Positions 8,032 to 57,520 of a stretch of DNA of 64,000 bases are shown here, in pieces. Every line of letters starts with the position of its first letter. The stretch's first letter is position 1. The stretch is from Melastoma dodecandrum (taxonomy: Eukaryota; Streptophyta; Magnoliopsida; Myrtales; Melastomataceae): NCBI GenBank assembly GCA_029817715.1, contig JARUPY010000434.1:2460001-2524000 (forward strand), in the 5' to 3' direction. The notes beneath the pieces are model-generated. The model had not been told where the DNA came from. It ran no database searches and saw only the letters and a program-made list of their open reading frames with translations. A program made the position numbers and the translations under genes.

Positions 8032-8040
8032 AATGGATAT

Positions 8041-21498: not shown

Positions 21499-21514
21499 CG
21501 AAGTCGCCACCAAT
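21499..21514 (-). other. Probable Tat primer binding site, copy A
   Basis: On the minus strand TTGGTGGCGACTTCGC follows the LTR end. TTGGCGACT-like sequences are common immediately after 5' LTRs of Tat-type elements. The same sequence occurs in copy B at about 54960-54975. The tRNA partner is not determined. Confidence 0.4.
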
Positions 21515-21519
21515 ATATT

Positions 21520-31652: not shown

Positions 31653-31666
31653 TGGTATTAGAGCTC
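31653..31666 (+). other. Primer binding site of the CRM-like element
   Basis: TTGGTATTAGAGCTC is one base off the tRNA-iMet complement TGGTATCAGAGC in its core. It lies 11-24 bases before the gag ATG at 31677. Confidence 0.6.
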
Positions 31667-31676
31667 GTGGTTGTCA

Positions 31677-32875: not shown

Positions 32876-32948
32876 GCTAAAGTTGCCTATCGAAGCTCAT
32901 CCTCACCCCTATCATCTTCAATGGCTCAACAAGGAGAGTGATGTTTGA

Positions 32949-35474: not shown

Positions 35475-37406
35475 TAGAATATCCAGAACTCTCTCCCATC
35501 CTCTTTCTCCGGCATGCTCATCTGCAGAGCTGAGATAAGAACGGAGAATCGTGACAGTTGTCATACCGTCACTGAGCACATAATATAGCTCCTTGCGGGC
35601 AAAAACGTGCTCCAGCACATCCTTCAGAAACTCAACCTTTATGGCCTTTCTTACAGTTTTATCCTTGTAATACTTGCACCATAAACCACTCTGATCGAGG
35701 TCCTGTTTTTGAGATTCTATCAGATGCCTACTTTCACTAGGATGGATATCCCACACTTGCATATTGGGAAGGATTACTTTCCCATATTGCTCATGCTCTT
35801 CCTCCTCCATCGTAGTGCTCGTAATCAACGCCGTGGCATATTTTGAACCATAGCCAAGGCACCCGAGTATGAACTTTACCAAATGAGGCAATGGTTCTAT
35901 CTGCTCTGGTTCTGATCTATCGATCTCCAGAATATCGATAAAACCCACTTACAAATACGGTAAAGCAACTCCCACCATACCTGAACTAATCCTTAGGGAT
36001 GGCCACTTCTCCGAAATCCAGTGTAGATATGGTTGAAGTACAGAGTTCTTCTCGAGTGAGGATTCTCTCATATCCACTACCACTTTAGAAGTCTCATAAT
36101 CTTTAACCTCACACGGTAGTATGGACATTGTTGTGGTGAGAATTTACTGTCTGTCCCTTACAGATTTAGACAGCTCTTCTCCATCTGCAGCCTTGTAAGT
36201 TAACTTGGCCTCCAGATCTTTGATGTACTCAATCGCTTTTGCTGCGAAAAACATAATTTGGGCTTGGTAATTATTTTTAATACCTCCCATAAGTCCTCCA
36301 CAAACAACAGTAGCATCCTAAGATAGGGATCCGTCCTCAAAAGAGTCCAAATCAAAAAGCCAATATCTATCTAGATCTTCATGACCTTCGTCATCGTGAG
36401 CTTGCTCCCCAGGTTCAACTGAACCTCCTTCAGGAATTACTTCCTCAAGGTTCTCCTGAGTTTGAGGATTACCTTCTTTGAGTGCAGTCGGTATTTCGTA
36501 ATTGAAATACTCGTCATACTCCATTTCCGCCGCATCGTCAGGATGTTCTTCCTTCCGAACAACTGGCTCTCCTATGAAGGCTTTGAACTTCGCCTCCTCT
36601 TCGGCATACTCTGTTTCCATCCTCTCTTTCTGTTCCTCCTTGCTTTGTAACAAAGCCTTGTAGGATTTCACAGCTTGATTAATGGAAATTTTCTTCTCCT
36701 TAGCCAGATAATTACGGCAGTAATTGAACTGCTCCGTGGTTAACGGGAACCACCAAGGTTCTTCAACCTTATCGTCCTTCTTAGGACCAGAAAACTTAAG
36801 CTGCTTCGCTTTCTTCTTTTTTCTAGCTTTCTCTTGGGAATTAGCCTCAGCTTCTTCCTTCAGATATACCATCTTCGCTTTTCCTTTAGAACTCACTTCT
36901 TCAGGATCAGCCATCTTCTTTTGAAGATCTTCCTTCACGTTTCCTTTGGGTTTGAAATTGTCTTCTCCCTTAGGACCCGTCACTCCCTTCTGGGAATCTT
37001 TTTCCACTTTTCCTTTGGAATTGGTTATTACCTTTTCCTTAGGTTCAGCCATTCCCTTCTGGGAATCTTCTTTCGTTTTTCCTTTGAAGTTGACCGGAGC
37101 CTTCTTCTTAGGATCAACCATCTCCTTCTGGAAATCTGTCTCCGCTTTTCTCTCAGAGTTGGTTTTTACCTTCTCCTTGAGATTAGCCACACCCTTTTGG
37201 GCATCCGCAGCTTTTAGCTTTCTGGGACATTCGAATGATCTATGTCCAGGTTGCTTACACTGCCAACACAAAGCTGATTTCGTTCCAGAAATGGAACCAG
37301 CATCACTATACTCACTTTTTCTTTTGATAGGATTAGGACATACCTTCTTGGAGTGTCCCTCCTGCTTACTTCTCCAGCAGATCTTCTTCTTTGCTACGGG
37401 ATCCAT
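35475..37406 (-). pseudogene. Downstream caulimovirid ORF with CCHC knuckles and Lys-rich repeats
   Basis: The frame opens at ATG 37406, overlapping RNase H by 41 bases. Its first 362 codons (to 36318) have a damaged knuckle (CWRS..H..C, second Cys replaced by Ser, 37338-37379), an intact knuckle CWQCKQPGHRSFEC (37227-37268), and about 130 residues of imperfect Lys/Glu/Ser repeats (SQKGMAEPKEK-type). A region around EEPWWFPLTTEQFNYCRNYL and an acidic tail follow. A TAG at about 36315 interrupts, yet the same frame continues in pieces to about 35475, including frame 35948-35475. Its position is that of the transactivator/inclusion-body ORF of caulimovirids. I do not recognise the transactivator domain, so identity is open. 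Confidence 0.5.
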
Positions 37407-38746
37407 CTATAAGTTCTCTAGAGAGAGAGTCAGCTATTATGTTTTTGTCTGAAGAGATATATTCGACATCAAATTTATAATAGTTAAACCATTCTTGCAA
37501 CCTCAAAAGTCTAGTCTGCCTAGCCTCCTTGAGGTTCAGACTCATAAACCTTTTTACGTAGGTCGAGTCAGAGCGCATTAAGAATTTCTTAGGTGCCAAA
37601 AAGATGTAAAAGGCTTTTATTCCATCTTTTAAAGCCAATACCTCTTTTTAATGTATCAGATATCGGAGTTCGTACCCCTTAAAACTACCCGACCAATACT
37701 TACAAACGGGTTCAGGTTTCCTTCCTTTAATTTTAAGGACAGCACACCAAAATTCGTTTGAAGCATCAATTTTCAGAACTAACTCATCTTTGTCAGATGG
37801 TAAAGAGAGTTGTGGTAAATTTTTAACCTTTCTCTTAATTCTCTGAATAGCATGAGTGTCCTCATCTTCCCATAACCAAGGATTTGCCGAAGAGGTTTTC
37901 TTCGAAATCCTTCCTAGATCTTGGGAAAGATCTTTCACAAACTTTCTTGCATAGTTAACAAATCCACAAAATCTTTGGACTTATTTTCTATCCTCAAGTC
38001 TGTCAGAAAAATCAACAATTATTTCGGCAATATGACTTTGCAATTTAATTTTTCCTTGCTCAATCTCCACGCCTAGAAAATTGACTAACTCCTTTAACCA
38101 TTCTATCTTCCTTTCCGATAGAATCATGCCCTCCTGTCGGAAGACATCAGTAACCTTATCAAGGTGCCTCATGTGGTCGTCTTCATTCTGACTGTAGACT
38201 AACACATCGTCTATATAGACCGCACAAAATTTTCGAACTTGCTTAAAAGCATTATCCATTTTGCGCTGAAACACGCCTGGAGCATTCTTCAGGCCGAACG
38301 GCATCACCAGCCATTCAAACATTCCTTGCGGAGCATTGAAGGCAGTTAGAAGAATCGACTCTTCCTCTATCTTAACTTGCCAGTATCCACTTTTCAAGTC
38401 AAATTTTGAGAAGAATTTTGGTTGGCTCAAACTAACTCTATCAATTAAATCTCCAGCAGTGGGAATCTTATAGCCATCGTCTTTTGTAGCTTTGTTAAGC
38501 TGACGATAGTCTATAACCATTCGGACTATAAAGGCAGGACTAGAATGCGGACTATAACTGTCCCTAATCAAGCCTTTTCCAAGCAACTCAGGAATTTGCT
38601 TGTCAAATTCCTCAACCATCTCAGCCGTATACATAATGTTTCTGGCCTTATAATGGTTCCGGGATCCTTTAACTCGAGTCTAGCCTTTAGGCTATTCCGA
38701 CTCCACAATTTTAATAGATCTTCACTAAAATTGTCGGCAAGTTTTA
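37366..38746 (-). pseudogene. Caulimovirid reverse transcriptase and RNase H
   Basis: The 217-codon minus frame 38634-37981 contains MVIDYRQLNKAT, FSKFDLKSGYWQVKI, MPFGLKNAPGVFQRKMD and the catalytic YIDD at plus 38207-38218. The pattern is that of caulimovirid RTs. After stops, RNase H is seen in a broken frame (37938-37648, with KIDASNEFWCAVL for the first catalytic Asp) and in 37638-37366 (MRSDSTYVKRFM, IIADSLSREL). The end overlaps the start of the next ORF by 41 bases in another frame, as in compact viral genomes. The copy cannot be expressed as one enzyme. Confidence 0.8.
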
Positions 38747-40915
38747 TCAGGAACTTATTCCCTGTATTGCCCTACACGCTTGTTTTGGAAACAAGTCGTC
38801 ATACCAGTTAGAACTTTTGGTATTCGTTAGAGAAAACAGGGTTTGTTCCCATGAATCGTTCTCATCCAACCGTATATCACCACGCTGAGCTCTCACTCTG
38901 AAAGCTTTTTCCCATGGTGTATTACCACAATATTCTGTCCGTTTTACCGGATAGAACCCAAATTTTAACCTCAACTTAGGTTCTTGGAGAATACTAATTT
39001 TCACCCCACCAATGGATACATGATGGACATCCTGCACAAAAGGTAAGTTTTCCTTTTGTCCTTTTAGAAAGGCATTACCAATTATGATGTCTGCCTCTAA
39101 TAAAGGATGGGCCAGGATTTCTTTAACGATGAACTGTTGTCCACCAATAAAGACAGGCACATTATTAGCCTGATGGCTGACTATTGTCGCCATTCCATCT
39201 ACATTCACCACATGGATAGGTTTCTGCAGTGGTTTCCACCACTCATCTGGTAGAGCATTGAGTCTAGCACAAGTTATGCTACACCCAGTATCTATCAAAG
39301 TATCCAGAGAATACTCATAGTATCCAGGAAACTTGAAAGTTAGAGCCACATACGTGCTCAAGTCTTCCTTCCTGACACTAAACCCAATATTCTTAGGTAC
39401 TTCTTGGGATGGTTCTATCATCCTCCAGATTTCGTCTATTGGTATAGACCTCTGCTCGGCTATTTGCTCAATAACCTTACAGACTTCAGGAATACTAAAT
39501 AAAGAGTTATCCGGATAGGTAACTCTCATCTTCTTTATTGATTCCTCTCTCGTTTGGTCTACCGGATCTTCATAGACTGGTAGTGACACCTGTCTATATC
39601 CAACTATTCTACCCGTATGTTGAGACGGGGTTCTCGAATCTGTAGACCTTCGAGACATTTCTTCTATTAGGGGTGGAGCAGATGCTTCTACTGGTCGGGA
39701 CACTATTATGTCCTCTCCCACATCACTAGGTCTAGAAGAAACTTCAAAGAGCGTATGAGTTCTTGGCTCTCTCAGGAGTGGCATCCTCATAGGCAGATGC
39801 CTGTCAGCTCTAAAACTATCTCTAGACGGTTCACCCAACATTAAAGTAATCTCGTTACCTCTTTGTCGGATATTAACCGCACTAATCGGTCTAGAGCTAC
39901 TACCAGGTTCAGTCATAACCCAATTTCTTGGCCAGGTTAACTCTAGTGGGTTCACCTCACGCCTATGAAATTGTTGGTAGTTATTATGACCTTCCTCGAA
40001 CAACTCAGTAAGTCTCGAGATGTTCCTCACACCTGGACTAGTAGTATTTACCAATCGGTAAATTACCCTAGTGTGATACGCCAAAAACTTGGCCTGGGAA
40101 TTCATTCTATCCATATTCATTGATTTTATCCTTAAGGTCAATGAATTTCCCAAACAACGATCATTCAGGGCCATCATGAAATTTGGATGGACCTAGAACC
40201 ATACAGGGCCATGTGCAAGGTTGGCCTGTATACCTGATATCAGTTGATCTCTAAACTCTCGCCATCGTTTATCGATTGCAGCTGCTACCACAGGACTATC
40301 CGCTGGAAGATTGAATAGCGGGATAAGTCCTACTTGGATCAACCCTATGTGTATGTAGTTATATACACCTCTCGCACGTTTCATGGTTTCCCTAATGCGT
40401 TGTACGTTGAGTAAGGGGATATCCAAAGTCTCAAGTTCCGTGCTTGTAACTTGAGCCGTTGCTTTTGTTTTTGAGATATCGATTATAGATCTTGAAACAT
40501 TATAGACCTCTCTCACATTAACATTGGGCAACCTCCATTCCAGAACTGACTGGGATGGATCTTCGTACTGGTGGGATTCATCCAGTACCTGATTCGATGC
40601 TTCCAAGGGAACCATCTCATCACCATCTCCATTTTGCTCTGCTCTCATCATGAACAGATGCATTTTCCAGAGATCAGAATCTTCTTCTGAGTCTGTATCA
40701 TAATTTGATACAACTTCATAGATAGATTCTACTTCCGAGTCTAAGTCAGAAATATCCTGCTCATCTATTAGTTCATAAGCCAGGACTTCTTCCTTGTGAC
40801 TCCTGTCATCCATAAACACTATTCGGAGTCTTTCTCTCCTCTGGTTCTTCTGGGGACAAGTATCCGCTTTGTGGGCTTTTGATCCACAAAACCAGCAACA
40901 ATTACAGTTGCCCAA
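38747..40915 (-). pseudogene. Caulimovirid CCHC finger, movement protein and protease
   Basis: On the minus strand the frame 40915-40193 begins with a finger CWFCGSKAHKADTC (40856-40897), typical of the capsid end, followed by an acidic linker. It then gives a movement-protein region (30K superfamily) with YNYIHIGLIQVGLIPLF (about 40325-40375) and the LAHGPVWF block. A TAG at 40193-40195 interrupts the same frame, which goes on (40177-38747, 476 codons) with PNFMMALNDRCLGNSLTL and AYHTRVIYRLVN. A retropepsin LIDTGCSITCARL follows, with catalytic Asp at 39290-39292. MP would open plasmodesmata; PR would process the polyprotein. Confidence 0.7.
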
Positions 40916-42414
40916 CGGTTTCCCTTTTGGACATTTAGGTTCTCTGCCATGCTTTCACTTAAAGGCTTCGATCCTATCTTTATCCTTAAGGTTAATCCGT
41001 CTCCTTACAAACCTCCTTGGTTTGTAAGCAGGACCTCCTCTATGTTTTTTCTGGAGGTCTCTCTTTGGCCAAACTTTCCTTTTGTTGTATCCAACAAATA
41101 TTTTCTTCTTTGGAAAGTTTCTTGTTCTCACATATTCTGTTTGAGTATCACATCCATACCTTCCCGGTACATACTCAATCTATGAACAACAGCTCTTGTT
41201 TAGGTATGGCAGCTTCTTAGCTGCCTCCTTAACTTGACGCTCAGTGCACGCCTTTCTCATCACGTACTTAACCGCCTGAATTTTTCCTCTGAGTCCAGAG
41301 ACAATCTTTTCCTCACTCAGAAGTAATTCATAGGCCTTTTGCGCAACTTCCGGCCAAGGTTCTGGAAGTTTTGCAAAAAAGGTTCCCAATTTGAACTGCT
41401 GAGAAACTACGTCCAGATTGTAATAATACTTCTGGAATTCACATACGTAGCTATCAAACCAGCACATATCACAAACTGTAGTTTAACCAGAGCATTCAAT
41501 GATTGCTCTTTTTCCACAGTTTCAGTGGATAACGAAAAACCACAGAACTCCCGTTTTAATGCATCAGCGATGATTGCCAATACACCATCAACGGTCAGCG
41601 CTTGATCTATCTTTTCTTTGATGTCAGTATGCGCCACCAAAGACTTCCAATATTTCTGCGCCGTTCCCATGAGGGCTACAACACATAATTCATAGACTGA
41701 TCCTGGTGATAATATCCCAGCAGACGCAGTCATTCGAATTAGAAATAACCACTCATCTATCTTTTCAGATACGTGATTCTCACAATCTATGTCGAGAAAA
41801 GCACCAGGGGTAATTATAGGCTTCAAAACATTATCCCTTGAAACAAATTCTTGTTTAGTTCTATGAGGATAATCGGGCCTGTAAATTTCCCTCTTCGCAG
41901 TTACCAATTCATTAAACGTTCGATTGTCTAAATGAACTAGAATGTCCTCTGCCAGGCCTAAGGCTTTCCTTAGGTCTTTTGCCAATTCTCTACTTTGAGA
42001 ATTCAAATTTGCATTTCGCTTTTGTGAGTCTAAAATGTAAGGAGCTACCGACTACTTATACATTTCATCCACACTCTTGCATTGATTCTGTTTGGAATTT
42101 CTTCCTCCCAAATTCAATCTTTCGACTGGTTTTCCTGTAGTACTTTCTAGGCATGAAGTCGCCTCGACTTCATGCCTTTTTAAACCTCTTTCTTGCTCAA
42201 TCGAGTCTAACATCTTGTTGACCATAGGGCCTACTTCCTGAGCAAGATGGTTTCGGCTCTCAAGACTTTCTGTATTCTCTTGAATGGTTAGCTGAGTTAA
42301 AATATCATTTATACTCTTGCTAATTCCATAAGGAGACAATCTAAACTCTGGAACGAACTCCAATCGTGATGGAGTTCTAGAAGGATTTCCCAAAGATTTT
42401 CCTTCTCCAGCCAT
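40916..42414 (-). pseudogene. Caulimovirid capsid-like ORF
   Basis: The frame opens at ATG 42414 with MAGEGKSLGNP and runs to a stop at 42052. The same frame continues as an open stretch 42006-41407, then shifts by one into 41467-41180 and onward. The central part holds a segment with WFDSYVCEFQKYYYNLD (about 41415-41465), then LPEPWPE, resembling the conserved core of caulimovirid coat proteins (YxCEFxKYYY-like). The basic tail and the CCHC finger (in the next ORF, 40856-40897) complete the capsid. At least two nonsense codons and one frameshift break it. Described only as a remnant. Confidence 0.6.
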
Positions 42415-42424
42415 CTCAAGGACT

Positions 42425-44431
42425 TATTTGAAAGTATTTCAAAATTTTGGGCTTTTCTTAAAATCAGAAAAAGACAAAAATGGGTTGGGACAGGCTTTAG
42501 GTAATTTGAAAACTTCCAACAGTGAAAACCGAATTTGTTTCTTTTCTCACGATACTTTAGAACCTTCCTCCTTGCCCCATCGGGGGTCTTCCGTCATTAG
42601 GGGAGAGGCACGATGTTCACCGTCTCCTGGGGCAAGAGGAATCGGCCGGAGAAAAGATCCCCCTTCCGTTTCCCCCGTTCCGCCGCCTTGGTCGCGAGCT
42701 CACTGATTTTCGTCGTCGCTGCGGGAAGGACAGCCAAAAGCACCCGGAAGACAGGCTCAGAGGAAGATGGGAGAGCGCCGAGGAGAAGAGTAAAACCCTT
42801 AATTCAAAGGGCTCGAAGCTGCTATACGGTCTCCCCCTCCCCTCGTCTATTTCTTCTGTTCTATTTGCGCATTTTCATGGTGGCGAGTTGAGTGGGTAGG
42901 GCGACGGGAGGTTGGTAGGTCGGGTAAGAGGATCCGTCGAATCTGAGTCGGTGAGTTGTGTGGTATGCATCTTCCATTTCTCGCCCACCTTCGTACGGGC
43001 ACTATTTTCTTCACCTAGCCTCGCCCGCATCCCATTTTTATATTTCCTCCCATCTCTGCTCACATACAACCCTTGATGAGTCGGAATGTCCCTCGTTTCT
43101 TCTTCTTGATTTTTGGCCGAACTGTCTTCGGTACTATTGGGTGTCGTGTGGTGTCGTGGGCGAGGAAGCAATTTGATTTCTTCTAGGGGCAGATTGTGCC
43201 GTGTTGTCTGAATTTCGTATTGCCTGCGGTACTTGGAGTGTTCGCCTCGGAAAGTTGGCCGCCATGAGTTGTACAGATTTGTCATTTTCTGTTGTTCCTG
43301 TGGTTATGCGTGATGACAATGCGGAGGAACTTTCAGTGGGAGTGAGCTGCGAGTTTAGTTGGTAGACAGCGAGTGGATTAGTGGTGTGCCTTGCTGTGAA
43401 TCGGGCGTGCAATCGGTCGGAAGTGATATGCTGATATTTGTCTGGATGATTGCTATTCTTCTGCCACTTTTGAACGTCTTGCCAAAAGAGTGAAATGTGA
43501 GGTTGATTTCGGTTATGAGTGGAAAAGGCAAACTTGTTTCATGAGGCTGAATCACCGTTTGTTTGAGCGAGTGTTTGTGAGGAAATCGTGCCACGAGTTG
43601 AATCGGGATAGAACCGAGCTTCACCCCTGGGGTGATGCGAAGATATCACCTGGACGGCGGGGAAGTTTTGTTGTTCTGTTCTGTGCCTTGTTCCGGGATG
43701 AACTCGCATTATGATGAGGTAGTGGAGGCTATGTCGGATGGCCGCTACCCGGTATTTTAATTCAATCTTCTGCCGCAATGAGACATTGGTTGAACATGAG
43801 ACATTGGTTGAGTGAGTGGCTGTTATTGTTACTGTTGCGAGGTGGAGTGGTATTACCCGGCTGTGATGTCTGAGGAGTACGGGGAGGCGACGACCATTCG
43901 CGGTTGCGCCGGCTGCCGTTACCCGGGCGCTCCCGGAGGAGTGGGTAGGGACGCACTTCGGTAGTCCTGGCACCATTCGAATTGTTGATACTGTTGGCCA
44001 GAGTGGTTTGAGGGAGTCGCTTTGAGAGAGTTGCATCGAGAGTTTCTGTTTCGGTTGGTTATCTTAATTTTAATATCTTATGAGTGATATCTTGTTGCAT
44101 TATGGTTGTGTTGATGATGTATTGTGGGATTATGAACTGTTTGTGCATAATACTTTCAAAAATACACGTTAGAATTCAATTAGTGGTCTCACTGTTTTTT
44201 TGTGTGCATGGGTAGGGCGTACTCAGCAAATTATCGCTGATCCCAGTTGGGGAATTTATTTTTAGTGTTGCAGAGAAACAAGAAGAAGGATACACGTGAC
44301 GAAGATTATCCGATTAGTCCATGGATGACAACACGGTGAAGACCTCAATTTTGTCGTTTCCGCTGTTTGACCGTTCAACTTCGGTTGAATCTTCTAATTA
44401 TAATTTGAAAAAAATTTTGTAGGTCGTTTCA
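42425..44431 (+). repeat. 3' portion of the 5' LTR
   Basis: About 2 kb ending in GGTCGTTTCA at 44431, two bases before the PBS. A GC-rich segment at 42570-42990 is probably promoter/leader sequence. The open frames inside (for example 42613-42891, 43539-44036) have no recognisable domain and overlap on both strands. Confidence 0.55.
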
Positions 44432-44433
44432 GT

Positions 44434-44445
44434 TGGTATCAGAGC
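44434..44445 (+). other. Primer binding site (tRNA-iMet)
   Basis: TGGTATCAGAGC, an exact match to the plant tRNA-iMet complement, placed two bases after the LTR end. Confidence 0.85.
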
Positions 44446-44521
44446 GTAGGTTAGGAAGGAATAATAAGGTGAAATAGGGTGTATCAGGCTTGAGAAAAGG
44501 AATAGTACGCTCACCCATGGC

Positions 44522-46503
44522 CTGAATCTCATAGTCTGTGTAGGCCCACTTTGGAAAATAGTCACTGATGCTGAAAAGCTGGTCTTAGAATGTAGAGGGA
44601 CTTAGTGAGGGTTCCTCAACCACGTGCTCAGAATCAATGGCACTCCATGATATACCAGTTGTAGCTGACTTCCCAGATCCACGACATCACCGAGTTCTTT
44701 AGACACCCACCTAAAAAAAAACTATCATTTTTGTTTAAACTAATCCCCCTTGGACCATAGTCTTTTATAGTAATTACAAGGGCAACATCTCTTTTGGCAG
44801 GATAGTCTTTTTCTGGTGGGGCAAAATCTTCTATGGTTTGCTCTAGGAAGCGAATAACTGGTTGGTACGATGAGTCCAAATCCAGAGACTGGTTCCTAGG
44901 CCATCCATGTATTCCCATATCGCCATTCAGAGGCTGAAAGTTGAATTAAGGTTAAAAATATTATTTATGTGAAGGGACAGAACAACAGGAAGGGGACAAT
45001 AAGTTGTCCTTAAAAGGAAGGGGACGAACAATAAATAAAACTCCCTCATACAGAATCTTTGCAAATGTGAATATTTCCAAGATTGGCTGATAGTAATTTA
45101 TGAGTCCACAATCGTTCAAGAAAGGAACAGACAAGTAATCGAGAAGTTCATAGGAAGACACTAATAAAGAAACTTTTACATGAAGAAGGGTCAAGTTCTT
45201 TAATAGAAAAGCCCCAATCCACTCAATCCCCACAATGGCATCTTATAGAACAGACTCCCAGTGGTTGAATTGAGACTTGATGGCTGTTGAATCCTACTTC
45301 CAATAACTAATTCTAGGTAAAAGATTGCAGAGAGAATCTGAAAGTCTTCCCCGGAAGAAAATTAGGCAATTCAATAGAGAAACCATTTCAAGGACAAACC
45401 TGGAATGGCCATTTTCAGCTCTTATTCTAATAATAAAATTTCCTCTAGGGCATAATACATTTTCTCTATCACTCTTTGGTATTCGAAAGAAAACGCAAAG
45501 TAACCAGTGTTGTGCCACAGTTCGGTCAAGACAGTTTACCCGACAATTCCCCTGTAGAGGAACCACTGGCATTCTTCAAGGCCAATCCCGAAAGGAATCG
45601 GCTGTTTAAAGGTCAACAATGCTTGAAGCAGAGTTGCACTAGTTCCGGATAAAGATTGTTTAGAAAATATCCTCCCACGTTTCCATTCCAAGGGACTTCT
45701 GTGCCTGAAGGGGATAACTATTGCTTGGGGGTGTCAACATGGACATTGAGCCGAAATTGCCATTTGTTGCAGAGGTGTGCCTACGATATTGTCATGATAA
45801 TGCAATAGGTATGAGGTGCTTGTAGATGCAGAACTCATCTTGTTCATCATAATAATTTGCCGCATCTCAAACAATGAATGGGAACCAGTGCCAATATGGT
45901 GAATGTCTTCTGCATGCTTTCGGGCCATAACAACATTTTCATAAAGAGACACCAGAGAGCTAGTAGGGCCAGTACAATCAGTGTTTCCTGAGTGTGCAGC
46001 ACCAATATTTCCAGAGAAGTTCTGTGATGTTGGGCTGTCTTCCTGAGTTCTCCTTATTCTCCCTAATTCCATTAACACTTGTTCCATTCTTCTCTACTTC
46101 CAAAAATAATGAACAAATACGATGTGCATCAACCCTGGTTCAAGCATTCCATAGCTAAGCCTTTGAAAGTTCTTATCTTCCATGCCAGGGGCATCGTAGC
46201 AGTGCAGTACATCAACATTCTCAATCTTAATGCTTTTCAAGAGCTTCCTTTACGGTCTTCCCATCTTCCTTCTTCCTCCAATTTTACCCATCCTCTCTAA
46301 AATATGTAGCACCTTCCGATCAAAAAGAAAAATGAATCACTTATTGGCCTGCTCGGAGATTCCGAGACAATCTGAAACCTCTGGGAATTACGAAGAATTT
46401 TACGAATTTTCATAGACTTTAACCATCGAGGTTGTGCCTCCTATTGTAACTGCTTGATGTCTAGCTGGGGGCTCAGGCCAAAAGAACCGCGTTGAGCCTT
46501 CAA
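44522..46503 (-). pseudogene. CAMTA calmodulin-binding transcription activator, processed partial copy
   Basis: Minus-strand fragments match CAMTA proteins in order. FGLSPQLDI (about 46450-46480), EAQPRWLKS and ILRNSQRFQI (46380-46440), an NWRKKEDGKTVKEA block (about 46245-46290), DVLHCY, LMHIVFVHY (about 46104-46128) and EDSPTSQ form the N-terminus and CG-1 DNA-binding domain. An ETWEDIF-like block lies near 45690. SKELGDV (44686-44715) and DQLFSISDYFPKWAYTDYE (about 44525-44590) lead into the start of the IPT domain. Ankyrin and IQ regions are absent. Many frameshifts and stops make it dead. The CG-1 region is read without introns, whereas plant CAMTA genes have several there, so it came from spliced RNA. 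It lies between a PBS and a PPT in opposite orientation. Confidence 0.8.
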
Positions 46504-46518
46504 GGATCGCACTAGGAG

Positions 46519-46546
46519 CCCTAATGCAGAACGTTCTGCATTAGGG
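46519..46546. repeat. Perfect 28-bp palindrome
   Basis: CCCTAATGCAGAAC is followed immediately by its exact reverse complement GTTCTGCATTAGGG. It sits 16 bases beyond the CAMTA N-terminal end, at the junction with element sequence. Confidence 0.9.
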
Positions 46547-46670
46547 TATTGATCAACGCTTCTGTATATCATGGGAGTTGAATACCGAATGAAATGAACA
46601 CATTCCTACCTAGGTGAGAAAGGTAATATAACAATTTTGTTACTAATTAAATTTCGATGATGAAATTCTC

Positions 46671-46683
46671 TTAAGGGGGTGGA
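46671..46683 (+). promoter_or_regulatory. Polypurine tract
   Basis: TTAAGGGGGTGGA, preceded by GATGAAATTCTC, the typical gypsy 3' end phrase, and followed by the LTR start at 46685. Confidence 0.75.
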
Positions 46684-46684
46684 T

Positions 46685-47111
46685 TGTAACGACCCGAAAA
46701 ATTTAACATCACAGATTTATTGGAATAATAATTATATACGAGTCAAATTTGGACTTAGTAAGAATCCGATGTGGGCACGAGAATTTAATATTCTCGTGGT
46801 CAGCTGATATTATTAGCGAGACACTATGGGTACCTTGAATTCGATTACGTGTGATTACATTACAAGGGAAATGGGACGCCCAGACCTAAACGTGAATGGA
46901 TTAGGATAACGATCTTGTTTGCATACTCCCATTGGTTGAGCACATGGTTAAATGTTTTATACATTCCCCGACGGCCAAGTCGACCCGCCGGAGTGATTAG
47001 TACTTGTATGTTTTCGCCAATATGGGGGCCAGACCTCCGTAGGGATATTATTCGGTACAACTTTCTCTAGTTTCCCCGTCGATGCAGAATCGCTTGTGGG
47101 CCCAACATGAA
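46685..47111 (+). repeat. 5' portion of the 3' LTR
   Basis: Starts TGTAACGACCCGAAAAATTT, the usual opening of many plant Tekay/Del LTRs. It can be followed for about 430 bases before the minus-strand open frame associated with the Tat-like segment begins. The border is approximate. Confidence 0.6.
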
Positions 47112-47731
47112 CTAAAGGGTCATTTTCCATCTAAGGTTTGTGGTGAGAACTTTTTCCCTCAACCTTGCCATCTGTGGGGACAAACGCTTCCCGGTAAATT
47201 TGGCGCCCCTTGGATGTAATTTGTTCTTCAAATTCGGAGGTTGTTCAATATTATGACCGAGACTCCATCGCATTATCCTTATCACTGCAAGCTCGATGGG
47301 AGTTCGATCAAACCATAGTTCATGTTGATGGTTTTGAAAGAACCTCTTGAAAATGAAGCACTTATCAGTGGTATGGGTGGTATCCATCTGCCACCAAAAG
47401 ATTTCGGCACATACAACAAATGATCGCACTAGAAGTTTGACGATCCCTTTATTTGCAAGCCTCCGGTAGAGAGCATTTGCCACATAACCCTCTCCAGATA
47501 ACTTGGAGTCCTACAAAATCGGGCCCACAACTCTTCACTTAATAGATTCTTGTACTTAGTAGATTTCTGTAAGAACTCGTAGAGATCTCAAAAAATCTCA
47601 CCCTGAATTTTTTTCATATTCGAATATCGAATGCATGTTGAGCAATCGGCACAATCACTTACTTGGAAAGAATTGTTTTATACCAAAGACGTGTTTTGCT
47701 TAATCTTTGAAGAAATGAAGCAACATGTTCT

Positions 47732-48568
47732 CTAATTTACTCCCTCATGAGTTCGACGAGTGTAATCGTCGAATCCAACGTCGCGAAGGCTAACATTATC
47801 CGGGTCTGCATACCTGCCATCCTTGAATTGAATTAGGGGCATGTGGATATACCAAGTGAAGGATGGTTCGGTTAACGTGTTTGGAAACAAATGAAGCTTC
47901 CAATGATCATTGTTCGAAGCCTCTCCAGCCTGGTGGGTGAATGTAGTAATACAGGAGTCGTAAGATCCTCCCCCCAAAAATAGGTGAAATCAGGGATTTT
48001 GTACCCCATTGTGCATAGATAATCAATGTCGATATACTCAAGGTAAGGAGGTTTTATAAAGACTAACCTCCTCCCTCCGCATTACTCCTAGGACCATTTG
48101 CTCGATTATTTGAGCAATGTACTGACAATAATGCAAGAGATCAACCGAAGGAACCTTAAGGGGTTATGTATCGTGCCTCTCTTTCTAAAAGCCTTTGCCG
48201 AAAAGTTGTCTTATCAGCAGAAGAATTACTAAAGAAGCTAGCCAAAATCCGTCTTCTACCATTGACCAGTATAAAAATTCTCCCACCAACGATGCGGTGG
48301 GGCATAAGTTTGAGTTTTGTAGTTTTCCTTGTACTCGTTGTCCAATTCGATTCTAATGGGAGTAAAAAACGACGATGTGTGCAACACTTGATTTGCTCCA
48401 CCGACGATGTGTGCAACACAGGATTTCATTCAATGGGAGTAACAAACGGATCTCGTGAACTTTGGTGCTCTCCAAGCGATACTCATGGGAGAAATATTTC
48501 TCTCTTGAGTCGAAGAGTCCAGTTTAGTGCACAAATCATGAACTTCCTTACGAAGTTTATTGATGATG
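47732..48568 (-). pseudogene. Tat-like gag fragment, copy B
   Basis: Minus-strand frame 47732-47977 has TTFTHQAGEASNNDHWKL and LFPNTLTEPSFTWYIHMP, nearly identical to copy A. A one-base deletion relative to A changes the frame after the PP block. N-terminal parts are broken. The sequence is interrupted at 48568 by the inserted CRM-like LTR. Confidence 0.65.
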
Positions 48569-49243
48569 TGAGTTGGATCAAGCAAGGACATGTAGGGACG
48601 CCAAAGTTGGGAGCCTCTCAAGAGGACCGACTGAGGTAGAGACTACCTAACGGAAATGAAGTGATCAAGATGATAACTCGAGAAGACATGAGTCCGTCTC
48701 GAAATTGTGAAGGTAGACGTTCATCTCGAGATCAAGGAAACGGGGTTTGTCTCGAGATCTAGTTCAACTTGCTCAAGGAAAACTCGAGACAAGGGAAACA
48801 CGAGATCACTCTAAGCCTCGAATTGCATGAAGGAAGGCCTTGTTTCTTTAGTTAATAATTTTGAACTTTTTTTATTAGTGTTTGATCTTTCTATTTTTGG
48901 CCTAATTCGGATCTAGGTTTAGCCCATTTCCGGTCTTCTATAACGGTTTGGGTTGAACATAACATTTTGAAGAATTTTCCGCTATGTGGCAGTCGTCAAG
49001 TTATCCCTTGAAGTTTGCCCTACTTCTCTTATCATTTGGTGGAGATCCAGACGTGGTGAGATTTCTCCGAGCGTCCCCATAATCGATGATGTATTTGTAT
49101 TCTATTGTGAGACATTCAACCCTCGTCACATTATATCCTGTGGCCGTCGGAGTCTTATCTAGTTGGCTTGTTTCGTCATTTTCGTTCGTTTAGTTTCGTC
49201 GTCATCGTAGTTTTTCCCATTACCGATGCGGTCGCACATCATT

Positions 49244-49255
49244 TGGTATCAGAGC
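49244..49255 (+). other. Primer binding site (tRNA-iMet)
   Basis: TGGTATCAGAGC, an exact match, 15 bases before the gag ATG at 49270. Confidence 0.8.
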
Positions 49256-49269
49256 ACAAAGATGAAGTG

Positions 49270-50195
49270 ATGGAAAATAGATTCCGAAGTGGGATGACGT
49301 TGGAGGTGGCCCCTTTCGACTCATTTAAAACAAGAAATTGAAGAGTTGCGGCAGCAGTTGTTGTAGCTTCGCATAGAAAGGGGGTTCCGCATACCACATT
49401 CTCCTCGACTATATGAGGAAGAAGAGGAGAATCCATTTTTCAATGATTTCAGTGATGGGGTGTATTCTAGGTGAGGACAAAGGGAACCATAGCATGTTCA
49501 AACTATCAATATGCAAGTGGACATTCCGGAGTTCGAGGAAAAATTGGATCCCAATGACTTTCTCGACTAACTCCTTTCAATAGAAAGAGTATTCTAGTAT
49601 GAGGATAGACAAGTCAAGATTGTAGCCCTTCGACGTTGAAAGTACGCAAGTTTGAATTTTAATCAGCAGCGTTCTCAAGAAGGAAAGGAGAAGATTCGCA
49701 CGTAGGACAAAATGAAATGGGAGATGAAGAAGAGGTTTCTGTAAAGCGGTATCGACAAGACTTGTTCATTAGATTGAACTCGCTTCATCATTCTTCCAGT
49801 GATTCTATGTACACTCGAGAGTTTGAGCAATTGAGGCTCTAGTGTGATATAGGTGAGCCCCCTGAGAACACCATTATTAGGTATATTAAAAGGCTAAAAC
49901 CTAACGTGGTAGATACTGTTGAGGTGCTGCCTTATTGGAGTTTTGTGGATGTATGTAACCTTGCCCATAAAGTCGATAAGCAACAAGCTAGGAGAACGCT
50001 TGTAAAACCAGCTATGAGGAGCACTCCTTTCAGCAAAAGGAGTTTGTCCTCGAGGCCAATCTCGAGTTCATCCTTAAGAACTCCAATCGCGAATAGTAAC
50101 AAGGACAAGGTCCAGGTTGAAGTTCGGCCACTCCCAAATGTTAGTGTCTCGAGAAAGTGTTTTAAATGCCAAGGAGTTGGGCATGCAACGTGGCT
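49270..50195 (+). pseudogene. CRM-like gag, truncated at the zinc knuckle
   Basis: ATG 49270 opens ENRFRSGMTLE, similar to the start at 31677 (GRFERGMTLDE). The following part has several stops. A conserved stretch is readable from about 49740: RYRQDLFIRLNSLHHSSSDS, YTREFEQLRL, RYIKRLKP, then the open frame 49906-50313. The knuckle begins as CFKCQGVGHAT (about 50157-50190) and then breaks into unrelated sequence. Confidence 0.7.
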
Positions 50196-50854
50196 TAACC
50201 ACAGCCTAGTTTTTTTTCTCTTCTTGTATTATAAATATCCCTTCGATCAGAAGGAACATGTAAGGTTTTCCGACGAAAAACACAGAAACACTTTGAAAAC
50301 CTCTCAATCATGAGTTTCTAAGTTTCCCAGGGGCAATAGTCGCGACAGTGGTGTCATAGTTTTCAACCAGTATTACGCCTTCTTACTTTATTCAGGGAGT
50401 CAGGGTTCTTACGCCTTGGTACAGATTGGATCATAAACATTGTTGGGAATATTCCCTTTTAATTTCCATAATTATTTATTAACTAAATAATTTTGTAATA
50501 AAAATATTTCCTTAAAAAAGTTCTCATTACGTTTAGCTTTTGTAGCTATAGACAGTTGGCTTCTATCCTGTAAAAGGTGAAGCTTCTTATGGCTTATCAT
50601 TTTTCTTTATAAACACATCAGACCATTATTTTCCTTACAAATAAAATGGGTGCTACATATGGAGAAATGCACAACCAGACGAATCTTTTATCCAACAACT
50701 CTTGAAGTTACGATTTCGAATCTTTTAATTCAGCAAGCCCCATTCGAGAGTGCCCTTTTGAAATATGTATTGTACCTGACAATACTTCCATAGAGAATTC
50801 CACATCCCGGATCAATTACAACCATGACAACATTTTATGGAACACATCCTTGAA
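50196..50854. other. Unassigned sequence, possible LTR-type
   Basis: No coding. TGTTGGGAATATTCCC at about 50440, an AT-rich run and TATAAACACATC near 50610 would fit an LTR fragment, but I see no matching partner. It could be the 3' LTR remnant of the minus-strand gypsy to its right or a separate insertion. Confidence 0.35.
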
Positions 50855-51400
50855 CTACACCACTGAATATCTTTCAAACTCATGAATGTCCTGTCCTTTA
50901 TTGATCTCCACCACAAGGAACACCTCGCGACCCTTGCTATAAACAAGTCGCGGTTGGTACCTCGACATCATCATCACCTTTCCGCTACCTTTGTGACATG
51001 TGTATGCTCGAGATGTTGGGCAAGACACCTCAAGCAAAAATTCTTTCTTTTCACAATCCCGTTGGGAACAACATGCACTCACCCAGTGCATGCCAAAGAT
51101 CATCTCAAAGTCACTTATCTGATACACAATCTAATCAGCCACAATACGCACATTGACAACAACAATCTCACATTGTTGGCACATTTCATTCACAATCTTA
51201 TGTTCCTTCCCTAATAATAACATATTCATCGCATGCTTAGTCTTTAATAATATGGAATTCATATGATAGACACAGTTTTTACCTACAAAGCAATAAGTAG
51301 CATCGTTGTCACGTCTTTTAGTTATTCACGAGAAATGTACCGAAAATCTCTTGTTTATATGCATTTGCATCCTCTTGCATGACACAATTCATTTGCCAAC
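50855..51400 (-). pseudogene. Gypsy protease remnant
   Basis: The 90-codon minus frame 50855-51127 reads ISDFEMIFGMHWVSACC, DCEKKE, matching the DFDVILGMDWL block after gypsy proteases. Upstream on the same strand, DDATYCFV-like text (about 51290-51330) stands where DxGAxHSF is expected, so the active site is lost. Confidence 0.6.
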
Positions 51401-51489
51401 CCATTGGAGAGCGATTAACAAATTTGTGTAATTAAGGAGGACATAGACACCCTCAATCCCATTATCGAATGCGGAGCACTCCAAATCAT

Positions 51490-52330
51490 CATGATTCCTT
51501 GTGGGAAATTCCAACGAATATGACCTAACTATCCACATTGGAAACATAAAATATGCCTGGTTAAAAACAAATTTTTCCAATGGTTCCACCTATAATGATC
51601 ACAACGCAGGGGTCCAACAACATTTATTCCTCAACAAGCTCCCTCTAGAAAGAAGACACACGTTCATGTCCATGTGGAGACATCAAAACATTAGCCCTCG
51701 ATTTCTTTTCTAGCCCCTCTAATTGGCGTCCCTTATAGGACATTCATTGCTAATGAAACCCAGTTGTCATAGAACTTTCAAAGGCATCAAAGTATCATTC
51801 TCATGGAATCCATTTTCGGTCCGTTGGGCTCGCATATACACTTCATCATAAATCGTCAGCATAAACGAAGTAATATGTGCTTTGATTGGCGGATTAAGCT
51901 TTTTCTCAAACTTCCTCACCCTCCACTCGAGATTCTTGGATGGTTATAACAAGATATCTCCAAGATTCGGCTTTCTCGTACTTGTTAACCATCATATTCC
52001 CATGGATCAAAAAGTCGAAAACTCGCACTTTATTCTTCCACATGGTGAAAGAAAAATATGTTACAAGAATATTTGAAATACTACCCATATAGTCCTGCGG
52101 TGAAACTTGTTCACTAATTTTTATGGCCTTCCACCATGCAGCTGCCTCTCATTAATTGGAGTACTTGACCAAAACAACTATCTCAATGATATTAGAACAT
52201 GATAACTCAATGATAATTTCCAATGGACCAATTAATTATTTCTCCCCTCAACGCTCTCATTATCATGAAACATCTAAGGATTCAGTCAATGAAAATGCTT
52301 AATCGATACCACTCACCTTTCTAACGAAAT
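51490..52330 (-). pseudogene. Gypsy gag core with zinc knuckle
   Basis: Minus-strand text includes AWWKAIKISEQ, then FTMWKNKVRVFDFLIHGNMM and VNKYEKAESWRYL, the usual order of the plant gypsy gag domain (WW..., F..KYFP..., V..Y). A knuckle CFQCG-LGHIRWNF is found at about 51515-51560, with its last Cys replaced by Phe and a stop inside. Several frameshifts. Confidence 0.55.
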
Positions 52331-52929
52331 GTCCCTGCACTCCTCTAGTGCACCATGACTAGCCAAATGCACGCTTTCCTCACCATCACTATTTCATAAC
52401 AATATACAGAATGTAATGTTGAATCACTTGCATCATATCATATACACATTTCTTAATTCATCTTGCATCAGGGGGTTTAGTGCAATCACAAACCAACAAA
52501 TGCCTACATTTTGGGCACACACTTTTCAACCCAACTCCTAAAAATCATCATAAACTCTCATTCAATATGTATGTGCACTCGGCCACCAATGCCACGACAC
52601 CACAAAACCGTTCCCATCTTATTCCAAAACTCAATTCACGTATCTCTTGTATTAAGTCCACATATTCCGACACCTACTGGACCCCTTACTCTTGTCTTTC
52701 AAGCGTTCTAGGCACCCCATATCAACACAACATCATCCGCACATTTTGCAAAAGATAATGCTGTTTTGATTTCATCAAAGAATTCCTCCATGACATCGAA
52801 ACATCAATATGAAATCATCATGCAAAAACATATACACGAACTCCATTTGTGCTTTTAAAACGGACTCTTTTCAAGTCAATTATTACCCTTAATACTCCCC
52901 TATTAGAGCCGCGATGATACCACATGTGT

Positions 52930-53880
52930 CATATTCAATTTTGCTCACATATACATTTGAAGAATTGGATTAAAAAATAATTAGCTATATTTAAAACCAA
53001 AGCCAAGTACATTCTTAAATTACATAGTATTTCTATGTGCATTCTAGACCATGCCCACACTTGACGAGGATGGCATTGCAAGCAACATCGCAAATCGGTT
53101 AGCGAAATGTCAAACACAAGCAGCATCCTAATAAAACTTTTCACTTTCGAAACTCCCAATATTTCCAAGATCATTCCCAAACAAAGCCTAAAAATGGCCA
53201 CAAAAGTTCTAGGTCAAACCATCCCAGGGGGGCAACAATCTCCCTCACCCCTTCATTGCCCCTTTCATATGAGCAAATTTCATTGCTCAGTTTCTGATGT
53301 GGGGCAGGTTAATTAACAATTTTCACTGCCCACCTAAGGTAAAATTCATATATCACCAATCTGCCACCTCGCTACCCCTTCCGTTCGCCTTTTTTAAACC
53401 TGCAAAGCCATTTCAATTCACATGGACCCTGAATCATCAGGGTCGGTTCGAGGTGGGCACATTCTGAATTTCAATTGACAATCCATTTTTTAAGGGTCGC
53501 CACAACCTCAAATATAAATTACCCTTCCTCAACTCAAGAAATGACATCACCAACCCAAATGACATCCACCATATATAATATCATCGAACTAACATTGATT
53601 ACATTGACTTCATTTCATTCTAATTGTGACGGGATTAATCATGTTCTCATCGGGACACTATCATTTTTGCCCCCTTATGCCCCCACTCGACTTACCCTAG
53701 GACCGATGTTGGGATCAATTTTGTCACTGCCTAGATTATATACCACAATCCTTGGGGTCTTATACATTCCTAACAATGACAGTACAACTATGAGCAATAA
53801 CACACATTCCTTAGAGAACCATAGATTCAATCATAAGTGCATACGATACACCTTGATGGGGGATGAGGTGAGGTGAGGAG
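52930..53880 (-). repeat. Candidate 5' LTR of the minus-strand gypsy
   Basis: Non-coding sequence between the degenerate PBS and the far border of the insertion. Plus-strand TG at about 52928 could be the LTR terminus. The right end is not defined. The small open frames inside have no recognised domain. Confidence 0.35.
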
Positions 53881-54979
53881 AGGTTCGGCTAGAACATTGA
53901 AGCTATGATTGAAAAATCACCCGAGAATTGGGTAATGAAAGTAACGATAAGGTCATGACAACTTTGGATACATGACAAAACCACCACTGAAGGTTGAATG
54001 AGCCATACTTGGAAGGTCACAGATACAACCAATGTACCACCGGACAATCACGAGGTTGAACGACACAACGACCGAAATAGCTAAGCACACTGGTGAAGCA
54101 AACGTTTGAATAAACATCATCACACTTGAAATCTAAAAAATGGTGAGAAAAGTGTAAACAAAGTCCAACATGTTTTTGGATTTTGTTTTCAACGATTCTA
54201 AAGAAACCATTATGCGCTACCTAGAAGAATGGGAAAATGAAAGAAATAAAACATAATAAAGGGATAAATAAATGTGACAGTCATGATGAAGTTGCATGAG
54301 TGATCTTTCTGTGCACGCATTCTTAAATGAAGAAGGGGGAAAATAGTTGAGTGGTCTTGTAAACGATTTGACATCAACTATCAACTCGAATGAATTTGGT
54401 TCTTGAGCGACGATGTTGGCTAGAATCCTGTCATCCTGACTAATAATGATCTATTGGATTTGGATAGACTGACATCTTGGATAGTCAATGGATATTTCGA
54501 GTTGAGACTTATGATTTTTTTAGTTGAGCGTTATGTTGACAAAGATTTGTCCTCGAATCAAATGATCTTTGCCATCCTCGTATAAGTCGATATCGTGAGC
54601 CTTTAATGTAGTCGATACTCCATAATCTCCAGGTATGTTTGTCCACGTCCCCCTTCCATGACCTCGGTGACGCGCGATGGCGGTTCAGACAATGCGAGTA
54701 TCCGAGCTCAATTTTCAGACTTATCCGGTCGGTGCCTCAACTCGAGCATCGGGCGTTGTGAAGGATATTGGAAATGAACCCTCTCTCGAATCTCAATCGA
54801 GCCAGCCTGGGCCCTCGTCGATCTCCTCAGTGCTCCGAAGAAGGCGACGGGCAAAAAGGTGGCACATTACCCACATTATCTTGGAGTGGCTCGTGCCGTC
54901 TTCCCCTCATTCATGATGGCTCCGTAAATAGTTTATTTGTCTTATCCTAAGTAAGTTATTACGAAGTCGCCACCGACTT

Positions 54980-57520
54980 ATTTTTATAAAACTATTGATG
55001 TCGCAAAAACAGTTGGTTTGGGTATTCGTAATTACTTGCTCTTACATTTAAACATCCGGAAAAGGTGTTACACCCGAAGCAGGTGTTACTCCTAACTCAT
55101 GTCATTATATTTTGGGCGTTAGACATTCGGGCTTAGGGGCTCAAACTCATGGTTGTTGGTTAACAATCACATGCGACAAAAATCCTAAGGCGTGCCACCA
55201 TGCACCATCAAAATCACAATGAAAAATTTAGATCAAATGGAGAGTGGAAGGGTGGTAATCGCTGGCCTATGCAATTGGCCCATGGCCCGTTACCTATGGA
55301 AATGAATGATTCGGGGAGGCCCTTTGTACCTCAAGTTTGTCAGTTGGGGCCACTTTAAGCAAACGTTGAATTCTGTTACACGTTCCTTTAGAATTTTGAT
55401 TTTCTCTGATAATTCCCTTTCGGACGACTAAGGACGCATTGTCGATCATCCACGACGTTGGCGGAAAATATCCTTCGGAATAGAATCCTCCGTTGTTTCA
55501 GATTCCAAATAGAGTAAATGAGGAAAATCTACAATGCCTTAGTATTGATTAAATTTGAGTGAAATCAATCGAATTAAATAAGGCATGACTGGCTATCATG
55601 TCGAAAAGGTGTTCACCATACAAGTGCACGTGGTCGTACATGTAATAGAGTATAAGTAACAAATTGTTCCCACGAGAAATGTTCTAAGCTTTCACCAAGT
55701 ATTAAATTACATCAAATCTCTATTATTCAACTACACGAACTAAATATTGAATTATGGAAAACTAGAATTTTGCGAAGTAAAGTTCGAGATGAGAAAACAC
55801 CTAGGGTAATAATTTCACCTAATAATTAAGCGCAAGCCATATCTCGATCAACACACTTAAATGATTCATTTGATAATATGAAATTTGGTTTTCTCTTTAC
55901 GCCCCTGTCGAGGTCATAAGAACGTACATCTCTATAACTAGTAACTACTCTATCCTAGGTGGATTAACTATCGAGAGTCCATTTAGAATTAATTGTAATT
56001 TAATTACCTAGGACAATTAGGTATATGCATATCTCGTTCGTGAATAATCTCATCTTCCGACCAAGATCTACTTAGGTTATTCCTTTTCTCGTGCTCAACC
56101 TAGGATTTCATATCTGAGTTCACCTAATTTCCCTATTCAATACTATTGGTGATCAGTAAATAAAAAAACACTAAGAATGAACAGAGTTAATCAAACCTAA
56201 ATCATTCAAGAGTATGAAAAGAGAAACCCTTGAAGATCCATCTTAACCCTAGGCAGATAAAATTTGATCAAAACGAAAGTAATTGAAAGCTTCAATTCAA
56301 CCTTAGGCATAGAAAATGACATAAAGAAAAAAATTGGTCCGTCGACGACTCCTTGTCACCAGTAGCCTCCTAGGTCGACTTCCCCCTTCAAAGAGATGGT
56401 GGAAGATCCTTTTATATCCCTAAAAAATGACCCTATAGGATCTCGATAATCTTGGAAAGAAAATATTATCTCAAGCATCAATGCAACTACACAAAATGCT
56501 CGTGCAGCTGCACAACATTTCTATGAAACTTCGTCTGTCTTTCTGGAGTCTCATGAAGCTACACGTTTTTCTAGTGCAACTACAAAAAGTCTCCATGCAA
56601 TTTCTTATCTCTTTCCTTCCTTCCGTGTAGATGCACGCTTTTCTAGTATACCTGCACCATGTTTCTATAGGATTTTGGCCCCTTGTTCGTCAATGCTAGT
56701 ACCTCTTAACCTTCATCAACTTTCCTCTTATGTCGTTGTGATTTTCTTCTCCGATTCCTTCCAAAATACACAAAAAGCACAAGGATAAGAGGATGAACAA
56801 CCTACTGGAAAGAGAAAAAAATAAAGACTAAGTCAATTAAGTCTAAAATATGATCCCATAACTTTCTTTTCATAGAGATATCACTTACCGCTTGAGGGAG
56901 GGAAATCGAGTCGACTTTTGATCTTGTGAGAATATCCCAATGGTAGAAGAGAGTGTTGTTCCATATCCAGTCCCTTGATCCATACATGTTATGAACCCTA
57001 CCAGTCCCTTGATCCATACATGTTATGAACCCTATGAAAGTGAAGGAATATCAACAGTAGAATGTTTGAAATATATAATCAAAGAGACATGCATAAGTGG
57101 CTATGTCGTTACAATGATGAAAATCTAACCACTAATTAAGTAGACAGATTAATTACATGCATGTCTATCAAATTTCACGATGATCTAACGGTGAGATCTT
57201 AATCCACAAGGCAAAGAATAATTCAGCCAATCATCGACCGTTTCCTCGAATTGCAGCAAGCATACGATCATTAAAAAATTCATAACTTTTCATACACTTC
57301 TCTAAAAATTGTATAGTTTTACCGGAAAACTTGATTTTCATTCAGCAAGCCAAATTTTTGGAAAAAGTAACATGAGTGGGTTTTTCCCCCATTGATTATG
57401 GGCTAAAGTTGCTCAAAATAAAAATTGTGAAACTTAAAAGTTGTCGATTAAATATTCTAACTCCAGGTTAAAAAATGTAAAAAGCTGAAATATGGTTCTA
57501 GAGACACCAAATGCATAAAA
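54980..57520 (-). repeat. Long LTR of the Tat-like element, copy B
   Basis: About 2.5 kb matching copy A at 21520-23957. It keeps about 170 bp lost from A (56387-56551) with a TATA box read on the minus strand (GGGATATAAAAGG, plus 56408-56420). A 41-bp phrase ending at ATGAACCCTA is duplicated near 56975-57035 only in this copy. Confidence 0.6.
56408..56420 (-). promoter_or_regulatory. LTR TATA box, present only in copy B
   Basis: Minus-strand GGGATATAAAAGG. The corresponding segment is deleted from copy A. Confidence 0.5.

Follow-up and report, generated by a model that had tools for sequence, protein, structure and literature searches.

Host genes carried by LTR retrotransposons have been reported in their hundreds to thousands in grasses and Solanaceae, as the available parts of three surveys state (PMC2774510, PMC3726574, PMC5664825). 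For maize, the accessible text lists 425 intact elements and at least 189 captures (PMC2774510), and an excerpt of a further survey gives 672 captured genes in rice and 1,343 in sorghum (PMC3726574). In pepper and other plants NLR genes have been retroduplicated, with about 72% of cases lying in elements without gag or pol coding potential according to the available part of that report (PMC5664825). In Plutella xylostella, the excerpted text describes 11 retrocopies of PxyMasc, named Pxyfem, together with sequenced antisense small RNAs directed against the parent gene (PMC9674220).

The locus described here lies in a 64,000-nucleotide stretch of Melastoma dodecandrum DNA, the whole of which was analysed and is called the window. 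We read it, with a probability of about 0.6, as the remnant of a dead non-autonomous LTR retrotransposon with Ty3-type termini, in which reverse transcription would have put a copy of the 5' half of a host CAMTA2 RNA in the place of gag-pol. Its features, in window coordinates, are as follows.

44420..44431, plus strand: 3' terminus of the left (5') LTR, ending in TAGGTCGTTTCA, by direct reading; inverted match of 9/10 to the LTR start at 46685
44434..44445, plus strand: putative PBS for initiator tRNA-Met, starting 2 nt past the LTR end
44446..44521, plus strand: presumed leader remnant of the element, reaching an ATGGC and lying outside the CAMTA match
44522..44933, minus strand: CAMTA2-like coding sequence, approximately residues 342-494 of Eucalyptus grandis CAMTA2 (P0004), stopping at an inferred exon end
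44934..45539, minus strand: 606-nt block resembling an intron, with GT..AG-type ends (GTAAAC...TTTCAG, read in the CAMTA direction) and rich in T
45540..46497, minus strand: CAMTA2-like coding region that has lost its start codon, beginning at residue 2 and running to about residue 310-328; it contains the complete CG-1 domain, frameshifts and stops, and no intron
46519..46546, no strand: perfect palindrome of 28 bp, no spacer, where the CAMTA 5' end gives way to the 3' part of the element; RNA hairpin with a 12-bp stem
46547..46672, plus strand: putative element remnant between the pol 3' end and the PPT, judged by where it lies and by how Ty3 pol genes usually end
46673..46684, plus strand: polypurine tract AAGGGGGTGGAT, by direct reading and motif search
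46685..47309, plus strand: beginning of the right (3') LTR, no longer than 625 bp should its break lie at 47310, where the copy of 19325-20583 starts

Termini and flanks of the element

Three hallmarks of an LTR retrotransposon are present at this locus, namely a PBS just inside the 5' LTR, a PPT before the 3' LTR and TG/CA inverted ends. The motif TGGTATCAGAGC, which we take to be the PBS for initiator tRNA-Met, occurs exactly at 44434-44445; with up to one mismatch, it has four matches (three exact) in the 64-kb window against 0.14 expected, and four or more were found in 0 of 100 shuffles. The PPT at 46673-46684 adjoins the LTR start, and the two together (AAGGGGGTGGATTGTAACGACCCG, 46673-46696) form the sole match at up to three mismatches in the 64-kb window. 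Both signals had been claimed in a sequence-only reading of this DNA, and both are borne out. The LTR end GGTCGTTTCA (44422-44431) and the LTR start TGTAACGACC (46685-46694) agree as inverted termini at nine of ten positions, a match equalled by 134 of 200,000 random TG../..CA pairs drawn from the window, and we think, with reasonable though incomplete confidence, that the ends at 44431 and 46685 belong to the same LTR family. The inner signals lie close to the CAMTA copy, at about 76 bp for the PBS and about 175 bp for the PPT. The leader and pol-end assignments are putative and follow the usual layout of such elements, and the lineage may be Ty3 Tekay/Del by the look of the termini.

The matching LTR termini of the earlier reading therefore stand as inverted ends over about 10 nt but not as a repeated LTR: a direct LTR-LTR match is absent from the window, so that an element with two LTRs is not demonstrated. 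Specifically, comparing the window with itself at E up to 1e-3 gave no match of the right flank to the left; when 46685-47330 was aligned locally with 40000-44431, the score was 23 against 21-29 in 20 shuffles, looser scoring of the same two flanks gave 20 against 15-24 in shuffles, and the longest word common to 42430-44431 and 46685-47309 was 11 nt against 9-15 in 50 shuffles. This absence of like LTRs fits truncation. From 47310 onward the right side duplicates 19325-20583 at 96.7% identity. A single long LTR running from 46685, with its PBS at 49244, was ruled out, because the sequence at about 48564-54046 is a separate insertion in the segment duplicated at 19325-23960. No gag-pol was recognised between 44434 and 46684, and we infer that it was replaced in a once-complete element.

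The surrounding window holds several further insertions and repeats. To the left of the element, minus-strand frames at 36321-42423 match a protease of caulimovirid type (Peptidase_A3, 2e-12) and, short of the Pfam cut-off, a movement protein, and appear to be the remains of an endogenous pararetrovirus; left of the 5' LTR end, a caulimovirid-like frame starts on this strand at about 42423. The segments 19325-23960 and 47310-57520 are a duplication whose pieces are 91-97% identical, the right copy being interrupted at about 48564, where 5.5 kb carrying a tRNA-iMet PBS (49244) has been inserted. A plus-strand element at 31650-35950 is of Ty3 type by the look of its frames and has a one-mismatch iMet PBS at 31653. 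An open polyol transporter gene occupies 29470-30870, its translation 99% identical to Melastoma candidum MLD38_031208 (next match 77%, Corymbia), which places the host in or very close to Melastoma (Myrtales, Melastomataceae); self-comparison revealed tandem repeats at 17720-18592, with a unit of about 170 bp, and at 5400-8040.

The CAMTA2-type copy and its inferred exon structure

The minus strand from 46497 to 44522 carries a degenerate CAMTA2-type sequence corresponding to approximately residues 2-494 of Myrtales CAMTA2. Using a composite protein read from minus-strand pieces with X at stops, we obtained at least 104 matches at E<=1e-3 among 7998 scored candidates. Pfam CG-1 and/or IQ/ankyrin domains are present in all of the matches listed except P0103, a JGI protein that itself matches an Arabidopsis CAMTA2 at 92%, and the best of the listed matches are Myrtales CAMTA2-type proteins (Rhodamnia, Syzygium, Eucalyptus). 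The read-through composite matched CG-1 (PF03859) at E=3.9e-28 and 98 bits over profile positions 1-114 of 116, and the alignment extends to the first residues of IPT/TIG, where the copy ends; the ankyrin and IQ/CaM-binding regions are absent. The protein comparison thus agrees with the sequence-only reading that CAMTA lies on the opposite strand and that the N-terminus, CG-1 and the start of the IPT domain are covered. Among ten pieces compared with Pfam, two gave sub-cut-off matches only (AXE1, CARD), taken as chance, and five gave none; one frame had no match among solved structures at 1e-3, Rfam returned 0 matches at the gathering threshold, and ARAGORN returned 0 genes.

Frameshift-aware alignment spans 46497 to 44516, with the final two codons unmatched. 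Against Syzygium P0002, 241 of the 467 aligned codons are identical, with 4 stops and 12 frameshifts; the corresponding figures are 235 of 468, with 3 stops and 13 frameshifts, for E. grandis P0004 and 224 of 465, with 3 stops and 10 frameshifts, for Trapa P0006. Coding potential was rejected on account of the stops, the frameshifts and the lost start codon, and the CAMTA copy is a pseudogene. Over the CG-1 region, 95 of 131 residues of the copy agree with P0002, to which P0001 and P0004 are identical at 129 and 128 and Trapa at 122-123 of 130, and simulated neutral change for this region gave about 0.14-0.15 substitutions per site. We propose that the copy decayed without selection. When a tree was built from the fragment and 30 of the 104 proteins listed, the fragment fell beside the Myrtaceae proteins (support 0.78, branch 0.76), which is the position that a Myrtales pseudogene would be expected to take. 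No protein named as Melastoma stands among the matches listed, nor among the 120 listed of 1335 in a second search, so that the parent gene was not found there.

The exon structure of plant CAMTA genes provides the frame for this copy. The available part of a study of 200 such genes gives 12 introns in 59.0% and 11 in 21.5%, with the first five introns conserved and five very small exons resulting; it assigns the phase profile 110201100100 to group IIIc woody-species genes including Eucalyptus, and places introns 8 and 9 in phase 0 in the dominant 12-digit profiles, one crucifer variant having 2 or 0 at intron 8 (PMC4770041). Junctions were inferred from 155 CAMTA2-type proteins, at the points where stretches are missing from or added to some of the gene models; these are models from other plants, and the junctions were selected from the data that also support them. 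They fall at 13/14, 53/54, 91/92, 122/123, 135/136, about 195, 236, 341/342 and 494/495.

Support for individual junctions is highest at 195-236 (17 models), stands at 6 models for 341/342 and falls to one or two for 122/123 and 494/495. Residues 14-53 are skipped in three models, and insertions at 13/14 occur in three; deletions end at residue 53 in four models, with an insertion at 53/54 in one; 91/92 and 135/136 each have two deletions and one insertion; and 122/123 has a deletion end in one model and an insertion in one. Of the deletions and insertions in residues 1-150, 12 of 16 and 7 of 9, respectively, begin or end no more than one residue away from one of the first five junctions; the others do not. 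A 39-residue stretch at about 195-236 is skipped in 17 of the 155 models, and deletions start at 341-343 in six of the 155; the middle of the protein also has many deletion edges other than 341/342 and 195/236. The exon end at 494/495 comes from P0096 and P0103, and the codon of residue 494 ends at 44522. Across the first seven inferred junctions the coding sequence of the window copy is uninterrupted, 46497-45572 giving 926 nt for residues 2-309 of P0002 (924 nt). At the inferred junction 195/196, five extra residues are present (45917-45931, minus strand), the last codon of which ends in AG, as an alternative splice acceptor would.

For P0103, only the edges of its match (123, 495) were used. 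It matches Arabidopsis CAMTA2 over residues 123-495 (P0004 numbering), and its ends are foreign, as unspliced introns would give. Compared with P0062 it has a 9-residue gap in the mid-part and four extra residues (NWQT) near the inferred junction 341/342; these differences, together with the models that skip about 195-236, suggest that P0103 likely derives from partly spliced RNA or a spliced model. The argument that P0103 runs unbroken through the middle of an Arabidopsis-type CAMTA2, and that the 0.6-kb block of the window copy is consequently not an intron, was rejected.

The sequence-only reading had described 1.98 kb of coding sequence without introns, which does not hold: CAMTA-like coding totals about 1.37 kb and is interrupted by the 606-nt block at 44934-45539. 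The copy can still be called intronless over the seven junctions at which it is unbroken, but the block looks like a retained intron. Measured on 44937-45540, it has 36% GC; the T-A excess on the CAMTA strand is +0.11, versus -0.03 and -0.02 in the exonic parts, and 211 of 6340 windows are as T-skewed. Its right edge reads CAG/CCT CTG AAT, in phase 0, at residue 341/342. The left edge is unsure: with GTAAAC at 45539, exon 8 would end about 19 residues early, and the frameshift-aware alignment places the first insert of the block after residue 309, 328 or 303, depending on the reference. With all three references, this alignment divides the block into inserts of 225-229 and 319-324 nt, separated by a short stretch read as coding, a result that counts against a single intron, but the intervening stretch is too weak to trust; an alternative would be a 0.32-kb intron plus a 0.23-kb insertion. 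No Pfam family was matched by two frames from the block. The block is probably the retained intron 8 of the source RNA, the numbers of this intron and of intron 9 at 494/495 being obtained by counting the inferred junctions. An 8-bp direct repeat, AATTCAAC, noticed by eye on either side of the 0.32-kb part, with edges picked after inspection, would suggest a transposon; we consider this less likely than an intron in view of the junction, the phase and the T excess. In our judgement, a retained intron is unusual in packaged mRNA.

Candidate origins of the reversed insert

Capture of a host CAMTA RNA by reverse transcription, as the sequence-only reading had proposed, is the best-supported account of the locus, given that introns are lost, the 5' end is kept, and the PBS and PPT lie outside; what needs amending is the state of the RNA. 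Incomplete processing of this RNA is suggested by the intron-like block and by the copy's termination at an exon end, and the source was probably a partly spliced CAMTA2 RNA with introns 1-7 gone and intron 8 kept, copied up to the end of exon 9. The inferred loss of introns argues that the captured RNA was sense, and a sense RNA in backward placement argues for switching during plus-strand synthesis, since sense RNA copied in minus-strand synthesis would give a sense insert and in plus-strand synthesis a backward one.

In the proposed sequence of events, plus-strand DNA synthesis would start with priming at the PPT, followed by the second strand transfer. The plus strand would extend past the PBS and leader, switch near the gag start to a co-packaged CAMTA2 RNA and copy this RNA from the exon 9 end toward its 5' end, until the template was exhausted near the start codon. 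A return jump to the minus strand of the element, shortly before the PPT, would leave the gene reversed within the element, and outer LTR parts would later be lost or overwritten. The RNA would thus be entered in its 3' part and exited at its 5' end. Plus-strand switching predicts the layout that is observed, with the leader followed by exon 9 to exon 1 (exon numbers inferred) and then the 3' end of the element, and we take this layout as a fit to the mechanism. A bold reading of the stop at an exon end would be the capture of a first-step splicing intermediate, the free 5' exon.

The copy retains the 5' end of the gene and lacks the 3' end and poly(A). Copies made by LINEs retain the 3' end and poly(A), and a LINE-type origin is disfavoured on these grounds; in LTR-mediated capture a poly(A) tail is not expected. 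These ends also bear on an unlikely rival, in which an independent processed CAMTA2 pseudogene would sit in or beside an older LTR element whose gag-pol was deleted, the PBS and PPT flanking it by chance. Neither an LTR pair nor a TSD links the two ends, and the region is a nest of insertions, as such a history would allow. Against it, the copy keeps its 5' end and stops at residue 494, the inferred exon 9 end, without an A/T run at 44522; moreover, the two LTR ends agree with each other as inverted termini, and the copy is separated from the inner signals only by the short distances given above.

The perfect palindrome at the exit junction is compatible with more than one history. Its hairpin has z = -3.1, two of 200 shuffles being equally stable, and its half was not found elsewhere in the window at up to two mismatches. 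Under plus-strand capture, our guess is that it could be a scar of the jump or a pause site. It could also mark a fold-back, as might accompany a sense copy captured in minus-strand synthesis and later inverted within the element. This second history, which we consider improbable, would give the same end layout and starts from the usual model, a switch from element RNA to cellular mRNA during cDNA synthesis, as set out in the available part of PMC5408686; it requires an extra inversion with breakpoints near both ends of the copy, which the sequence does not demand. More doubtful still is capture at the DNA level, by break repair or recombination, of a CAMTA2 segment already without its first introns, for which the intron-like block would be natural but which faces the joint absence of five, probably seven, inferred introns.

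Returning to capture by reverse transcription, the PBS, PPT and LTR ends look intact beside the drifted copy, a weak hint that the element may have moved after capture; by our own arithmetic, a run of twelve bases has a chance of about 18% of escaping change at 0.14-0.15 substitutions per site. No second copy of the element was seen within the 64-kb window. The locus is a possible but unlikely candidate source of antisense RNA against CAMTA2, unlikely in view of its decay and the single visible copy. As a long shot, a Melastomataceae lineage of elements might carry the backward 5' half of CAMTA2, its transcripts yielding antisense RNA and small RNAs against a calcium/calmodulin-dependent regulator of stress responses; were this so, intact ends beside a drift of about 0.15 substitutions per site would mean continued movement after capture.

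Comparison with known gene captures

The Melastoma locus resembles maize Bs1 and other gene-carrying plant LTR elements in holding a host gene fragment within an LTR element, as far as the available parts of these reports describe them (PMC13317346, PMC5408686). It differs from these elements in two respects, the reversed placement of the fragment and the intron-like block that remains in it. The term 'orientation' does not occur in the main text of PMC13317346, PMC2774510 or PMC3726574. With the NLR retroduplicates, in the accessible portion of their report, it shares the capture of spliced mRNA by LTR elements, whereas the main tested NLR group is under purifying selection (PMC5664825) and the CAMTA copy has stops and frameshifts. 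Among the publication titles listed in a search, none was on a CAMTA gene captured by a retrotransposon; this covers titles only and does not prove absence from print.

The closest likeness is to Pxyfem, also the nearest documented example of an antisense role that we met, which in the available text is likewise a reverse-complement partial cDNA of a host regulatory gene, with introns excluded, joined to LTR retrotransposon remnants. Pxyfem also sits among degenerate mobile elements, template switching has been invoked for it, and LTRs are not identifiable there either (PMC9674220). Unlike Pxyfem, which as excerpted is an animal case with 11 copies and small-RNA data, the Melastoma copy is single in the window, degenerate and known from DNA alone. 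Overall, the locus is a further case of a known phenomenon with some unusual detail. In our judgement the capture phase of reverse transcription is seldom readable, and here the layout hints at the step involved. If further copies confirm the junctions, the locus would offer a readable case of the plus-strand route and a plant counterpart, in layout, of the moth antisense retrocopies reported to silence their gene.
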